A DNA stretch of 6,699 bases from Halomonas halophila. GTDB taxonomy: Bacteria > Pseudomonadota > Gammaproteobacteria > Pseudomonadales > Halomonadaceae. The stretch spans positions 537 to 7,235 of the forward strand of contig DJIP01000006.1 of the NCBI GenBank assembly GCA_002433675.1, read 5' to 3'. The position numbers and the translations under genes were made by a program. Shown piece after piece: positions 121-6,699 of the stretch. How positions within the stretch are numbered: the stretch's first letter is position 1; each line of letters starts with the position of its first letter. A model generated the notes under the pieces. The model did not search any database and was not told the DNA's origin. It saw only the letters and a program-made list of their open reading frames with translations.

Positions 121-2304
121 TCAGGCGATGCCAGTGGGGTGGGAAGGTCTGCCTCCAGGCTCAAGCTCAGGTGGACGCGCCTTGCGCACCGGCGTATCCA
201 GGGGGACGTGGCGGGCGTCCTCTGTGGCCTCTGCCACGAGGTGACCGTTGGCCAACAGTGCCTTGAGCTCTTCACCCGGGATGGGTTTACTGAACAGGTA
301 GCCTTGGTACTCATGGCCCTTCAATTGTCGGATAAAGGCCAGTTGCTCAGGGCGCTCGACACCTTCTGCGATGATATGAAGCCCCAGGCTCCGGGCCAGT
401 GATATCACCGCCTGGACGATGGCCGCGTCCTGTTCGCAATCGACCACGCCTTGCATGAAAGTGCGGTCGATCTTCAGACGGTCCACGGGCAAATTCTTCA
501 ACTGGGTCAAGTTGGAATAGCCGGTGCCGAAATCGTCGATGGACATCAGCACTCCCATTTCGCGCAGGGTGCTCAGTACCTCCAGGGCGCGATCAGGGTT
601 CTGCACCAGGGTGCTCTCGGTCAGTTCGAGTTCCAGCAGGTGGGGAGGAAGACCCGATTCGGCAAGCGCCGCCTTGATGGTGGCCACGAAGCCGCGATGA
701 TTGAGCTGAATGGCGGAGATGTTGACCGCCACCGGCAATGGCTCGCCGGACTCCTTTAGCCACTCGCTCGAGAACCGGCAAGCGGTGTGTAGCACCCATG
801 CGCCCAGCGGAAGGATCAAACCACAGTCTTCGGCGACGGGAATGATCTCGTCGGGCGTGACCCGGCCGAGTTCCTCATCGTGCCACCGCAGCAGTGCCTC
901 GACGCCAGAGACCTCGCCGCTGTCGACGCGGATCTTCGGCTGGTAGGCCAGGCTAAGGCGATCCTCCTCGATGGCCTGGGTCAGGCGTCGCTCTAGGGTA
1001 CTGCGGCGGTCTGCCTCGGAGGTCATGTCCGATGCGAAGAATTGGAAGTTGTTGCGTCCCTGCTGCTTGGCGCGATACATGGCGGCATCGGCGTGGACCA
1101 TCAGGGCGTGCTTGCTGCGCCCGTGGTCGGGGTAAAGGCTGATGCCCAGGCTGGTGGAGACCTTGACCATGCTGTTGCCGATCTGGAAGGGCTTGTCCAG
1201 CGAACTGACGATGCGCTGGGCCAGCGCTTCGGCGTCGCCGCGCCTGGCAACCTGATGGGTGACCACCATGAACTCGTCGCCGCCCACCCGGGCGACCAGA
1301 TCGCTGTCGCGCACCGCCATCTGCAGGCGTCGGGCCGCGCCCTTGATCAGCTCGTCACCCACATGGTGGCCGAGGCCGTCATTGACCTGCTTGAAGCGGT
1401 CCAGGTCGACGAAGAACACCGCGAAGGTATCGACGTTGTCCTCAAGCAGTTCATCGAGGTGCTCCTCGAGCTTCAGCCGGTTGGGCAGTTGGGTCAGGAC
1501 ATCGTGATGGACCAGATCCTTGAGTTCCTGATTGGCCCGTTGAAGCGAACGTGCCAGCTGAGCATTGCGCGAGGAAAGGTGGGCGTCGTAGATCGACATC
1601 ATCAACGCTGCCAGCATGATGCAGGTGGCGACCAGCGCCACCACGATGGCCAGCCGGTCGGTGCCGATGCCCGGGGCCGAGGCCGAGTAGCTCAGGGTGC
1701 GGTAGCTGGTGGCGGCCATGCCGGTGTAGTGCATGCCCGAAATGCCTGCGGCCATGACCAGCGAGGCCAGGCCACGTTGCCACAGCGGGGAGCGTCCCCC
1801 CACCGGGTTGAGTCGAAAGGCCAGGCTGAGGGCGACCGCCGAGGCCAGCACGGCGATGACCACGGACAGGGCAAACAGATCCGGTCGGTAGCGCAGGCTG
1901 TCTACCGACAGCATGGCCTCCATACCGATGTAGTGCATCAGGCAGACGCCGCTACCCATGATCAGCGCGCCGACGGCCAGACGTGGTCTGGTGAGGCGTC
2001 CGGACTGGACCGTGGCGAGGGCCAGCGCCGAAGAGAGAACGCTTGCCAGCAGGGATGTCAGGGTGAGGGGAATGCCGTAGGCGAAGTGCGAGTCGGGGTC
2101 CATGGCCAGCATGCCGACGAAGTGCATCGACCAGATGCCTGTGCCCATGGCGAAGGCGCCGCCGGCAAGCCACAGCTGACGGGCAAGGCCGTGGCTCGAT
2201 CTGACGCGACCGGCGAGATCCAGGGCGGTGAGCGAGGCGATGGCGGCGATGCCAAGGCTCAGGGCGACCAGTGCCGGGTTGTAGGACGCAAGCGAGTGGT
2301 CCAT
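121..2304 (-). CDS. MHYT-GGDEF-EAL membrane cyclic-di-GMP synthase/phosphodiesterase
   Basis: A 727-residue inner-membrane protein that should make and/or degrade the second messenger c-di-GMP, which controls the switch between motility and biofilm. Residues 10-240 form about seven hydrophobic helices with the MHYT sensor motif three times (MHFVGM 60-65, MHYIGM 123-128, MHYTGM 191-196). In this family these His and Met residues are proposed to bind a metal, possibly copper, and to sense O2, CO or NO. A polar linker that may be a coiled coil (243-265) leads to the GGDEF domain. Its active-site GGDEF is intact (341-345), as is an inhibitory-site RxxD (332-335) five residues before it. The EAL domain keeps EAL (469-471), the VNIS Asn (528), the ELTES Glu pair (560, 563), DDFGTGYS (590-597), KID (611-613) and EGVE (647-650). 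Both halves therefore look catalytically competent. A proline-rich tail (about 690-727) is of unknown role. The ATG at 2304 follows AAGGA (2315-2319) at 10-nt spacing. Which activity dominates cannot be read from sequence. Confidence 0.95.
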   Translation of the reverse strand: MDHSLASYNPALVALSLGIAAIASLTALDLAGRVRSSHGLARQLWLAGGAFAMGTGIWSMHFVGMLAMDPDSHFAYGIPLTLTSLLASVLSSALALATVQSGRLTRPRLAVGALIMGSGVCLMHYIGMEAMLSVDSLRYRPDLFALSVVIAVLASAVALSLAFRLNPVGGRSPLWQRGLASLVMAAGISGMHYTGMAATSYRTLSYSASAPGIGTDRLAIVVALVATCIMLAALMMSIYDAHLSSRNAQLARSLQRANQELKDLVHHDVLTQLPNRLKLEEHLDELLEDNVDTFAVFFVDLDRFKQVNDGLGHHVGDELIKGAARRLQMAVRDSDLVARVGGDEFMVVTHQVARRGDAEALAQRIVSSLDKPFQIGNSMVKVSTSLGISLYPDHGRSKHALMVHADAAMYRAKQQGRNNFQFFASDMTSEADRRSTLERRLTQAIEEDRLSLAYQPKIRVDSGEVSGVEALLRWHDEELGRVTPDEIIPVAEDCGLILPLGAWVLHTACRFSSEWLKESGEPLPVAVNISAIQLNHRGFVATIKAALAESGLPPHLLELELTESTLVQNPDRALEVLSTLREMGVLMSIDDFGTGYSNLTQLKNLPVDRLKIDRTFMQGVVDCEQDAAIVQAVISLARSLGLHIIAEGVERPEQLAFIRQLKGHEYQGYLFSKPIPGEELKALLANGHLVAEATEDARHVPLDTPVRKARPPELEPGGRPSHPTGIA

Positions 2305-2606: not shown

Positions 2607-4058
2607 CTAGCCATGGGCGGTGCACAGGTACTTGGTCTCGAGATATTCCTCCATGCCCTCGAGGCCGCCTTCACGACCAAGGCCAGACTGCTTGACGCCA
2701 CCAAAGGGGACCTGGGGTCCGGTGATATCCATGGTGTTGGTACCGACCATGCCGACTTCCAGGCGTTGCTGGTAGCGACGGATGCGCTGCTGGTCCTTGG
2801 CATAGACGTAGGCCGCCAGGCCGTAGACCGTGTCGTTGGCAGCGGCGATGGCCTCGTCGTCGCTGTCGAAGGCACGCACCGGGGCGAGGGGCGCGAAGGA
2901 TTCTTCACTGGCGATGCGCATATCATCGGAGAAGTCGGCCACCAGGGTCGGCATGAAGAAGCGTGGCCCCGGGGCCTGGTCCTGGTCGCGACCGAGCACG
3001 CGTGCGCCCCGGGATCTGGCGTCCTCGACCAGTTCGCTGGCCTTGGCCACCGCGTCGCGGTTGATCAGCGGGCCGATCTTGCTGTCCTCATCGAAGCCGT
3101 TGCCCACCGGCATGTCATTCATGCGTTGGGTGAAGCGCTCGATGAAGGTGTCGTAGAGAGAACGGTGGACGAACAGGCGGTTGGCCGCCACGCAGTCCTG
3201 GCCGCTGGTCTGGAAGCGGGCGGCGATAGCGCCTTCCACGGCGGCGTCCAGGTCGGCGTCCTCGCAGACGATAAATGGGGCATTGCCACCCAGCTCCATG
3301 GCGCTGCGCTTGACCGTGTCGGCGGCCTGAGCCAACAGCGTCCGGCCGACCTCGGTGGAGCCGGTGAACGACAGCGCGCGAACGCGATCGTCGCCACAGA
3401 CCTTTTCGGAAAAGCGCTTGCCGGGGCAGGTGAGGACGTTGAACTCGCCCCGGTTGAGCCCGGCCTGTTCGGCCAGTCTGGCCAGGGCAAGCGCACAGAA
3501 AGGGGTCTGGCTTGCCGGATTGACCAGGGTGGTGCAACCCGCGGCCAGTGCGGCCCCGACCTTGCGGGTAATCATCGCCAGCGGGAAGTTCCAGGGGGTA
3601 ATGATGGCCACCACGCCGACCGGCTGGCGTAGCGTGCCAAGCGAGATGTCGGGGTCATCCGAGGCCAGGGTATCACCGGCAATGCGTCGCGCCTGGCCGG
3701 CAAACCAGCGCAGGAAGCTGGCGGCGTATTCGACCTCGCCGCGGGCCTCGGCCAGGGGCTTGCCCTGCTCCAGGGTCATCAGGCGGGCCAGCGCCTCGGC
3801 ATTGTCCTGCATCGCCTGGTACCAGGCCATCAGTGCGTCGGCGCGCTCCAGGGCGGGGGTGTCACGCCAGCGCTCGAAGGCCTGGCTGGCGGCGTCGATG
3901 GCTTCGCCCAACTGGTCCTCGGTCAGCTGGGGCACCTTGCCGATGGACGCTTCGGTGGCCGGGTCTTCGACCTCTTGGGTCTTGCCGTCGCTGGCCTCGA
4001 CCCAGTGCCCGCCGAGATAGGCATGGTCTGTCATCAGGTGGTTCTCAGGGGTGTGCAT
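2607..4058 (-). CDS. gabD: NAD(P)-dependent aldehyde dehydrogenase, succinate-semialdehyde dehydrogenase-like
   Basis: A 483-residue cytoplasmic aldehyde dehydrogenase, close in length and sequence to E. coli GabD (482), which oxidises succinate semialdehyde to succinate in 4-aminobutyrate breakdown. Visible landmarks are TPWNFP (154-159), FTGSTEVG (231-238), catalytic Glu255 in MELGGNAP, catalytic Cys289 in [18 protein letters not shown] (451-463) and a GabD-like end (EYLETKYLC). Several usual residues differ. The cofactor-binding Lys of the LKPAS motif is Asn180 (codon AAT). The FGP of the EESFGP motif is FAP (388-390). The Arg six residues before the catalytic Cys, which binds the substrate carboxylate in human SSADH, is Gln283. 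The second Cys of the redox-switch CVC is Ala291. The aldehyde substrate and coenzyme are therefore uncertain. The ATG at 4058 has AGGAG nine bases upstream; Met9 (4034) is a poorer alternative. The frame stays open to 4712, but that part is antisense to the next gene. No gabT or gabP is in view. Confidence 0.88.
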
Positions 4059-4211: not shown

Positions 4212-5483
4212 ATGAACGTTCGCAGTGAAGGCGTGGTGATCGTAGGTGGTGGTGCCGGCGGCCTTGAGCTTGCCATCCGGCTGGCCAAGGCAGGCCACAA
4301 GGACGTATTGCTGATCGACCGTAGCGCCACCCATGTGTGGAAACCGCGGTTGCACGAGCTCGCCGCCGGTTTTCGGCGTGGTGAGGTCGACGAGCTGGAC
4401 TACGCCGGACTCGCCGAGCACTGGGGGTTCGGTTTCGAGCGCGGTGAACTCGCGGACATCGATCCCGAGGCGCGTACGCTGACCCTGGCCGAGTGGCGCG
4501 AAGACGACGGTCGGGTGAGGGTGCCCGGTCGCCGCATCGGCTACCAGGCGGTGGTGCTGGCGATTGGCGGGGTGACCCCGGACATGGGCGTGGAGGGCGT
4601 GCTCGAGCATGCCTTGATGCTCGACAGCGAGGCCGACGCCGAGCGACTGTTCGAGCGCTTCTCGACGGGGCTGCTGGCGCATCGCGCCAAGCAGAGCAGC
4701 GATCCCTTCCATATCGCTATCGTCGGTTCAGGGGCCACCGGGGTAGAACTGGCGGGGTTGCTGGCCACCGAGGCGCGGGCCTCGAGTGTGGCACCAAGAG
4801 AGTGCCAGCCCAGGGTCAAGGTGACCCTGCTGGAGGCGACCGATACCTTCATGCCAGGCATGGAGGATGAGGTGCGCCAATCCATTCGCAAGCGCCTTTT
4901 AAATGTCGGCATCGACATTCACACCGAACAGCAGGTCAGCCGCGTCGATCGCGACCGTCTGACCACCGACGGTGGCGACGAGTTTCAGGCGGACCTGACC
5001 ATCTGGGCGGCCGGCCGCGTGGGCCCGCCGGTGGCCGACTCGATCGACACGCTGGCGACCAGCAAGAAGCGCCAGTGGCGGGTGAGGCCGACCCTGCAGA
5101 GTGTCGACAGCGATCACGTCTTTGCGCTGGGTGACTGCTCGGTTATCGACGACGAGCCCGCACCGCCCACCGCCCAGGCGGCCAGCGAGCAGGCAGAACA
5201 CCTGGCCAAGGAGTTGCCGCGTTTTCTCGCGGGGGAAACGCCCGCGCCCTTCGTCTACGAGGACAAGGGCACCCTGCTGTCGCTGGGTGAGGCCGGTAGT
5301 GTCGGCGAAGTGAAAGGCTGGTTCGCCGACGACGTCCAGTTGCGCGGGCGACTCGCGCGGGCGGCCTATCAGGGGCTGCAGCGCCAGCACCAGTTCATCC
5401 TGCTGGGGCCGCTCAAGGGTACCGCCGAGGCGCTGAGCGACGTCCTTGGCCGCTCGGTCGGGCCACGCCTCAAGATCCACTGA
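4212..5483 (+). CDS. ndh: Type II NADH:quinone oxidoreductase (NDH-2), FAD-dependent
   Basis: A 423-residue flavoprotein that should pass electrons from NADH to membrane quinone without pumping protons. It has an N-terminal FAD Rossmann motif VIVGGGAGG (9-17), the NDH-2 signature HVWKPRLHELAAG (41-53), a second, NADH-binding Rossmann motif IVGSGATGVE (170-179), IWAAG (264-268) and the FAD-contacting ALGDC (305-309). The C-terminal part (about 377-423) resembles the amphipathic membrane anchor of E. coli Ndh (434 aa) and ends PRLKIH, like PRLKLH there. There is no signal peptide or true membrane span, so it is probably a peripheral protein on the inner face. The quinone-site motif AQxAxQ reads AQAASE (321-326) followed by Gln, so the usual Gln is Glu326. 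The ATG at 4212 has a full AGGAGG (4202-4207) at a short 4-nt spacing; the ATG at 4197 lacks a good site. It is divergent from the aldehyde dehydrogenase and convergent with DUF1826. A related FAD reductase with another acceptor is possible. Confidence 0.88.
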   Translation: MNVRSEGVVIVGGGAGGLELAIRLAKAGHKDVLLIDRSATHVWKPRLHELAAGFRRGEVDELDYAGLAEHWGFGFERGELADIDPEARTLTLAEWREDDGRVRVPGRRIGYQAVVLAIGGVTPDMGVEGVLEHALMLDSEADAERLFERFSTGLLAHRAKQSSDPFHIAIVGSGATGVELAGLLATEARASSVAPRECQPRVKVTLLEATDTFMPGMEDEVRQSIRKRLLNVGIDIHTEQQVSRVDRDRLTTDGGDEFQADLTIWAAGRVGPPVADSIDTLATSKKRQWRVRPTLQSVDSDHVFALGDCSVIDDEPAPPTAQAASEQAEHLAKELPRFLAGETPAPFVYEDKGTLLSLGEAGSVGEVKGWFADDVQLRGRLARAAYQGLQRQHQFILLGPLKGTAEALSDVLGRSVGPRLKIH

Positions 5484-5515: not shown

Positions 5516-6205
5516 TCAGCTCGGATCGATGGTCAACAAAAGGCGCGTCTCCCCTGCCTGCTGCGCCGGGCTGCGGTGTACCAGACCGCGGCCCTCGTTG
5601 CCGCTCCAGCCGTCCCCTTTCAACAGTGCCAGGTCGCCGCTGGCCAGTCGCTCGATGGCGTGGGGCTGGCGAAGCGTCTCCGGCTTGTTCGGCGAGGGCG
5701 CGCCTAGCCCGGCGCGATTGACCGCAGACTCGGGCAGCCATTCGCTGCCCGGCCCCCGATAGCTGGTGACCAGTCGCACCGGCAACTTGTCGCAGTGAAA
5801 GCGTGGACACATGGCGCTGTCCAGCAGGCGTAGCCTTACCCCCAGGGTGTCGGTGTCGAACAGCATCGCCATGGCCTGGGTCACCAGCAAGACGTCATCC
5901 ACCAGCGGGCCAGCCTGTTCCTGGACGGGCATGCTGCGCCTGAGTTCGCGCTTCATGGCATCGTCGGGAACCCCCAGCCACTGAAAGCTCCAGCGACGCT
6001 CTGTCTCGCACTGTGCCTGGATGCTGTGTTCCAGGCTGGGGGACAGCGTGCGCTGCATCACCGTGATGGAAATGTCGTGCTCGAAGATGCGCGGCAGGAT
6101 CGAGACGTCGTTGCCGAGGGCCCAGTGGGCACTAGGCTGTGTCTCGAAAGAAGTGGCCGGGGGGGCATCGACGACGCAGGAGGGCAATGAACTGGGCAGC
6201 GACAT
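5516..6205 (-). CDS. DUF1826 family protein, predicted metalloenzyme of the zinc-starvation response
   Basis: A 229-residue soluble protein that I recognise as DUF1826, a family without an assigned function. The conserved core is CPRFHCDKLPVRLVTSYRGPG (around 133-153) and, nearer the end, GDLALLKGDGW (190-200) and GLVHRSP (207-213). His137-x-Asp139, then His210, then Arg221 eleven residues later, reproduce the HxD...H-x10-R pattern of Fe(II)/2-oxoglutarate dioxygenases. The GDLALL strand before the second His also fits that double-stranded beta-helix fold. This function is my inference. There is no signal peptide or membrane span. I chose the ATG at 6205 because GGAG precedes it by 8 nt; the in-frame ATG at 6250 lies inside the Zur operator and would overlap the promoter. 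The gene is divergent from zigA and shares its Zur box, so it is probably repressed when zinc is plentiful. The family assignment is fairly secure and the chemistry is not. Confidence 0.85.
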   Translation of the reverse strand: MSLPSSLPSCVVDAPPATSFETQPSAHWALGNDVSILPRIFEHDISITVMQRTLSPSLEHSIQAQCETERRWSFQWLGVPDDAMKRELRRSMPVQEQAGPLVDDVLLVTQAMAMLFDTDTLGVRLRLLDSAMCPRFHCDKLPVRLVTSYRGPGSEWLPESAVNRAGLGAPSPNKPETLRQPHAIERLASGDLALLKGDGWSGNEGRGLVHRSPAQQAGETRLLLTIDPS

Positions 6206-6232: not shown

Positions 6233-6251
6233 AATGTTATAACGTAACATT
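6233..6251. promoter_or_regulatory. Zur operator shared by DUF1826 and zigA
   Basis: AATGTTATAACGTAACATT has perfect 7-bp inverted arms (6233-6239 and 6245-6251) around a 5-bp spacer. Laid on the 23-bp E. coli Zur consensus as I recall it (centre at 6242), 17 of the 22 specified positions agree. Zur is the zinc-loaded repressor of zinc-uptake and zinc-sparing genes. The box lies 27 bp before the DUF1826 start and 69 bp before the zigA start, between two divergent genes of which one, zigA, belongs to a known Zur-controlled family. It probably represses both. Confidence 0.88.

Positions 6252-6320: not shown

Positions 6321-6699
<379 letters not shown>

Follow-up and report, generated by a model that had tools for sequence, protein, structure and literature searches.

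The closest described relatives of the protein analysed here are PA5534 and FTN_1758, members of the same Pfam family (DUF1826/PF08856), which in the published passages respond to zinc and lie beside COG0523 genes. FTN_1758 was up more than 30-fold by quantitative reverse-transcription PCR, both when zur was mutated and when zinc was chelated, and 8-fold by RNA-Seq (PMC5786701), and PA5534 was up 57.5-fold in a znuA deletion (PMC4542158, Table 2). PA5534 is also among the genes raised by N-acetylcysteine (PMC9431628), the PA5534 unit has been counted with COG0523 (PMC10393844), and DUF1826 is drawn in a figure that shows COG0523 clusters regulated by Zur (PMC2770081). As for function, PA5534 and PA5535 are given as annotated metallochaperones of unknown function (PMC13083405), and the DUF1826 protein has been called or guessed a metallochaperone (PMC11761036); in the cited passages the family stands as hypothetical, as a guessed chaperone or as a zinc-sparing paralogue. 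The passages reached by our literature search hold none that names DUF1826/PF08856 an oxygenase or ties the COG0523/Zur context to such a link. Here we examine the DUF1826 gene in a 6,699-nt stretch of Halomonas halophila DNA (the whole stretch is called the window; the genome is 4.28 Mb, its assembly 87% complete) and add an oxygenase reading of the family. A parallel that we draw by description is the CciO/PiuC/YbiX type, in which a metal repressor, Fur, controls a cytoplasmic Fe(II)/2-oxoglutarate dioxygenase-family gene that adjoins a metal-uptake gene; CciO itself is required by the neighbouring iron receptor (PMC12004947). That system differs from ours in that its metal is iron, not zinc, and in that a TonB receptor takes the neighbouring place held here by a COG0523 GTPase.

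The earlier note gave the right position and strand for the gene (5516-6205, minus strand). Its coding sequence has 229 codons plus a stop, and it is present in a single copy in the assembly. In a Pfam scan its product matched DUF1826 with 172.7 bits against a cut-off of 22, and no second Pfam family was found at E up to 10. An in-frame ATG farther upstream, at 6250, would give 244 amino acids; because this ATG sits inside the palindrome described below, we take 6205 as the probable start.

The same note had suggested that DUF1826 hides a Fe(II)/2-oxoglutarate dioxygenase, and structure prediction with fold search supports this from the window protein and, independently, from a Bacteroidota relative. 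Both proteins gave confident AlphaFold2 models (for the relative, a predicted local distance difference test (pLDDT) score of 92.5), and on these predicted models the double-stranded beta-helix fold of the superfamily was found. When the two models were compared with the PDB, the best 50 matches listed in each of the four outputs were all members of the Fe(II)/2-oxoglutarate-oxygenase superfamily, some by title and others by what we take their membership to be, except one with a silent title (3pl0). The TM-scores were modest and the proteome p-values weak, and the absence of a family from these lists does not exclude that family. In the BFVD viral library, the two best matches were the uncharacterised giant-virus proteins A0A3G5A5D1 and A0A3G5ADC6, with TM-scores of 0.63/0.59 and 0.59/0.47, above those of the listed PDB chains.

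In Fe(II)/2-oxoglutarate oxygenases, an H-x-D...H facial triad and an Arg typically hold the iron and the co-substrate. We aligned 459 distinct relatives, made up of 346 database proteins and the proteins of the loci (L115, with three stops in its match, was left out), which came from the phylum of the window, from Bacteroidota and from one Myxococcales record. The numbering of His137, Asp139, His210 and Arg221 proposed earlier is correct, with GDLALL at 190-195, and in the homologues these four residues do not vary freely and are much better conserved than the remainder of the protein (Table 1): all four are jointly present in 454 of the 459, and the HxD spacing is constant across those 454. 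The exceptions include a Gln at 210 (P0305), a Glu at 221 (P0331) and a gap at 221 (P0325); L116 is a 61-residue fragment. DUF1826 sequences carry the facial triad in order and a basic residue 8-13 residues past the distal His, the two sequence features of the superfamily. Other near-invariant positions are R52 (452 of 459), C133 (457), R144 (458), K196 (450), R211 (452, with Lys in 6) and S212 (455). Among 23 diverse members that share 19-51% identity with the query, 11 columns show no variation (R52, C133, H137, D139, R144, G151, G197, H210, R211, S212 and R221), and the chance that four given positions of 229 all fall within them is ~3e-6, a rough figure since conservation is common at His, Asp and Arg in general. 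Taken together, the two concordant predicted folds and the conserved triad and Arg argue, with good confidence for a model-based assignment, that the DUF1826 protein belongs to the Fe(II)/2-oxoglutarate oxygenase class, from which we infer Fe(II) binding and 2-oxoglutarate turnover.

No link to oxygenases was given by HMMER against Pfam, NCBIfam or PDB sequences, and the assignment is therefore hidden from sequence models. PDB sequences searched by phmmer and by profile revealed no oxygenase relation of DUF1826, and NCBIfam (E up to 0.01) gave none for the window protein. All 23 diverse members matched DUF1826 in Pfam and none matched an oxygenase family, with E values up to 10 admitted; for these members and the window protein, TauD (PF02668) returned zero matches at that threshold, and PhyH (PF05721) and the prolyl-4-hydroxylase (P4H) type (PF13640) returned zero HMMER matches. 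The same scan found no peptidase or AstE family in the 23 members, and on this ground we reject the name succinylglutamate desuccinylase, which appears in some database sources and in a remark in PMC5786701; with oxygenases as the fold matches, such an activity is hardly credible.

A more sensitive comparison by hhalign set two DUF1826 queries against P4H, PhyH, AlkB and cupin profiles, with 40 unrelated profiles as control (maxima 21.8 and 24.3 for the two queries). For the oxygenase profiles we used 29 of 31 (P4H), 23 of 30 (PhyH), 21 of 21 (AlkB) and 28 of 30 (cupin) loci, the remainder being without a similar partner. PhyH, with scores of 29.7 and 26.4, was the sole oxygenase profile tried that exceeded all 40 controls with both queries; AlkB lay just above the control maximum with the first query (22.4) and below it with the second (20.4), and cupin (18.1 and 18.9) stayed inside the range of the unrelated profiles. 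The PhyH alignment pairs G190, H210, S212 and R221 with the Gly, the distal His, the Ser two residues after it and the Arg eleven residues after it. This pairing bears on a Fe(II) oxygenase that would dispense with 2-oxoglutarate. ACC oxidase and isopenicillin N synthase do not use 2-oxoglutarate. Both are among the listed fold matches, which favours such an enzyme. However, Arg221 pairs with the PhyH Arg, and an Arg 8-13 residues past the distal His is kept together with the triad in 454 of 459 relatives, which makes this alternative very improbable.

A Fe(II)/2-oxoglutarate hydroxylase of proteins, similar to prolyl hydroxylases and with targets such as ZigA or a ribosomal protein, is a possibility that we regard as rather unlikely. 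Pseudomonas putida P4H and PHD2 head the matches listed by VIA for the window protein, within one Z unit of small-molecule enzymes; for the Bacteroidota relative, in contrast, small-molecule enzymes head the matches listed, again tied. The likeness to P4H and PHD2 in fold goes with ~10% identity to the DUF1826 protein, and the P4H profile, with hhalign scores of 11.9 and 11.4, did not reach the control maximum.

The zinc setting proposed in the earlier note is borne out by the adjoining ZigA, by an operator-like palindrome common to the promoters of metal-uptake transporters in the same genome and by published data in which zinc depletion induces orthologues. The palindrome, AATGTTATAACGTAACATT, lies at 6233-6251 between the start codons of the DUF1826 gene and zigA. 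Its match in the window proves nothing, because the pattern was written from the window site; what counts as a test is where else in the genome it occurs and how often relatives carry it. When up to two mismatches are allowed, AATGTTATANNNTAACATT has three places in the 4.28-Mb genome, compared with one for a backward-pattern control. The second place is the divergent promoter between a ZnuA gene and a pair of genes for an ATP-binding cassette (ABC) ATPase and an ABC-3 permease, and the third is the stretch ahead of a second such pair. Beside znuA in the window's genome, positions 1-240 of locus L234 read as N (X in translation), and the gene adjoining znuA is therefore not visible in full. 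Among the relatives, 61 of 116 loci carry TGTTATANNATAACA, again with up to two mismatches, upstream of DUF1826, compared with 33 of 580 stretches of 400 bases drawn at random from these loci, a background that will itself include some true sites. Most of the 61 box-bearing loci belong to close Halomonadaceae kin; among L066-L118, which include the window's own copy (L070), 17 of 51 carry the box. A further 28 of 117 loci have no box but have a COG0523 gene immediately ahead of DUF1826 in the same orientation. The DUF1826 gene has upstream of it a likely Zur-type operator common to zinc-uptake genes, and judged from these sequence patterns it is very probably under Zur control.

The divergent neighbour is zigA. 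The NF038288 (ZigA) model scored 223 bits for the piece in the window and 752 bits when its in-frame neighbours in the whole genome were included. Among 398 genomes of the phylum, 47 carry DUF1826 and 93 have a ZigA match at E 1e-100, 65 of which pass the curated cut-off; the two occur together in 34 genomes (Fisher p 2e-14, without correction for kinship). Their matches lie no more than 1.5 kb apart in 28 of the 47, a count that takes in the fragment L116 and the degenerate L117. Two genomes (G182 and G329) have two DUF1826 genes each, one near ZigA and the other not. Recurrent neighbours in the 117 loci are COG0523/CobW (65), FolE2 (47), ABC ATPase (37), ABC-3 permease (30), ZnuA (24), DksA (22) and a Fur-family regulator (10). 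This neighbour clustering is noisy: 20 clusters were named, each through Pfam on one representative, and five of them have no family; the largest (85 loci) consists mostly of open reading frames on the opposite strand and was not interpreted, and L070-L100 have flanks of only ~1.5 kb. No DUF1826-COG0523 fusion was found among the 9,797 reading frames of loci L001-L118, which include 117 DUF1826 and 79 COG0523 frames.

Several observations weigh against an oxygenase acting in zinc starvation. Thirteen of the 47 DUF1826 genomes have no ZigA, and 20 of 117 loci have neither the box nor a COG0523 gene nearby. The fold alone is no proof of 2-oxoglutarate as co-substrate, because some of the fold matches work without it. 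The PhyH match is weak, with hhalign probabilities of 12% and 5.5%, and covers residues 187-229 only, and the P4H profile is without signal. The distal-His-to-Arg spacing varies among the 454: 10 in 315, 11 in 129, 13 in 5, 8 in 4 and 9 in 1. In TauD-like dioxygenases, ten residues separate the distal His from the Arg. The earlier statement that exactly ten residues lie between the two holds for the window protein (H210-R221), as in TauD, but given this spread it does not describe the DUF1826 family, which also lacks a Pfam match to TauD. L117 matches the family in its N-terminal half only and lacks the HxD, the distal His and the Arg despite ZigA nearby. Finally, the near-invariant Cys133 lies outside the usual triad. 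L117:4928-5632, a DUF1826 relative beside ZigA, may be a degenerate copy or a pseudo-oxygenase.

Some of these points bear on a metal carrier, that is, an oxygenase fold without enzymatic activity whose HxD...H site, perhaps together with Cys133, would hold zinc or another metal and exchange it with ZigA or clients. The conservation of Cys133, the adjacency of ZigA and the metallochaperone named or guessed in the cited passages of PMC13083405 and PMC11761036 are consistent with it; a carrier would, however, have no need for Arg221 and Ser212, both of which are near-invariant, and it meets the same genomes without ZigA. We consider it improbable. Those genomes also weaken ZigA as an obligate partner or substrate of DUF1826, and they mean that ZigA cannot be a general substrate of a protein hydroxylase.

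Table 1 Features of the locus, by position in the window (codon positions of the HxD pair by arithmetic)
Feature	Position	Strand	Basis
DUF1826 protein, predicted Fe(II)/2-oxoglutarate oxygenase fold	5516..6205	-	PF08856 E 1.2e-50; model pLDDT 92.1; fold matches
Codon of Arg221, predicted 2-oxoglutarate binder	5543..5545	-	456/459 relatives; pairs with PhyH Arg
Codon of His210, predicted third metal ligand	5576..5578	-	457/459 relatives; pairs with PhyH distal His
Codons of His137-x-Asp139, predicted metal ligands	5789..5797	-	each in 457/459 relatives
Palindrome AATGTTATAACGTAACATT, likely Zur operator between two divergent genes	6233..6251		three genome places within two mismatches; similar box in 61/116 loci
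Start of zigA (COG0523 zinc metallochaperone GTPase), cut by window end	6321..6699	+	PF02492; NF038288 ZigA 223 bits

Further genes lie elsewhere in the window. A flavin adenine dinucleotide (FAD) oxidoreductase gene (4215-5483, plus strand) is convergent with the DUF1826 gene, with 32 bases between them; its product matches Pyr_redox_2 (pyridine-nucleotide-disulphide), its best NCBIfam model being far below cut-off. An aldehyde dehydrogenase (2607-4016, minus strand) is nearest to succinate-semialdehyde dehydrogenase models, with scores below their cut-offs, and an MHYT-GGDEF-EAL protein (121-2304, minus strand) is likely a membrane-bound cyclic di-GMP enzyme.

As a whole, an oxygenase-fold DUF1826 enzyme that is induced by zinc starvation via the palindrome beside divergent zigA is the likely explanation of the locus. 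Zinc starvation would switch on the gene through the palindrome between it and zigA. In the protein, His137, Asp139 and His210 would hold Fe(II), and Arg221, perhaps with Ser212, would hold the 5-carboxylate of 2-oxoglutarate; O2 and 2-oxoglutarate would give CO2, succinate and a ferryl species, which would hydroxylate one conserved substrate. A single substrate is suggested because Arg52, Cys133, Arg144, Lys196 and Arg211 are near-invariant across phyla, and from the same residues we tentatively guess, at less than even chances, that it is small and anionic. The enzyme may supply an iron-using step under zinc scarcity, in company with FolE2, ZigA and the Znu transporters. A speculative extension, which we think unlikely, would give it a single conserved target in zinc handling, either a molecule or a protein, and would have iron, oxygen and 2-oxoglutarate gate the zinc economy of the cell.

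The response to zinc starvation is usually described as uptake, chaperoning and the exchange of zinc proteins for zinc-free ones. If our reading is true, an iron- and oxygen-dependent step is added to this response, and by analogy DUF1826 would be the zinc-side counterpart of CciO. The proposed enzyme class makes the function of DUF1826 directly testable, by loading the protein with Fe(II), by assaying turnover of 2-oxoglutarate and by comparing metabolites or proteomes.
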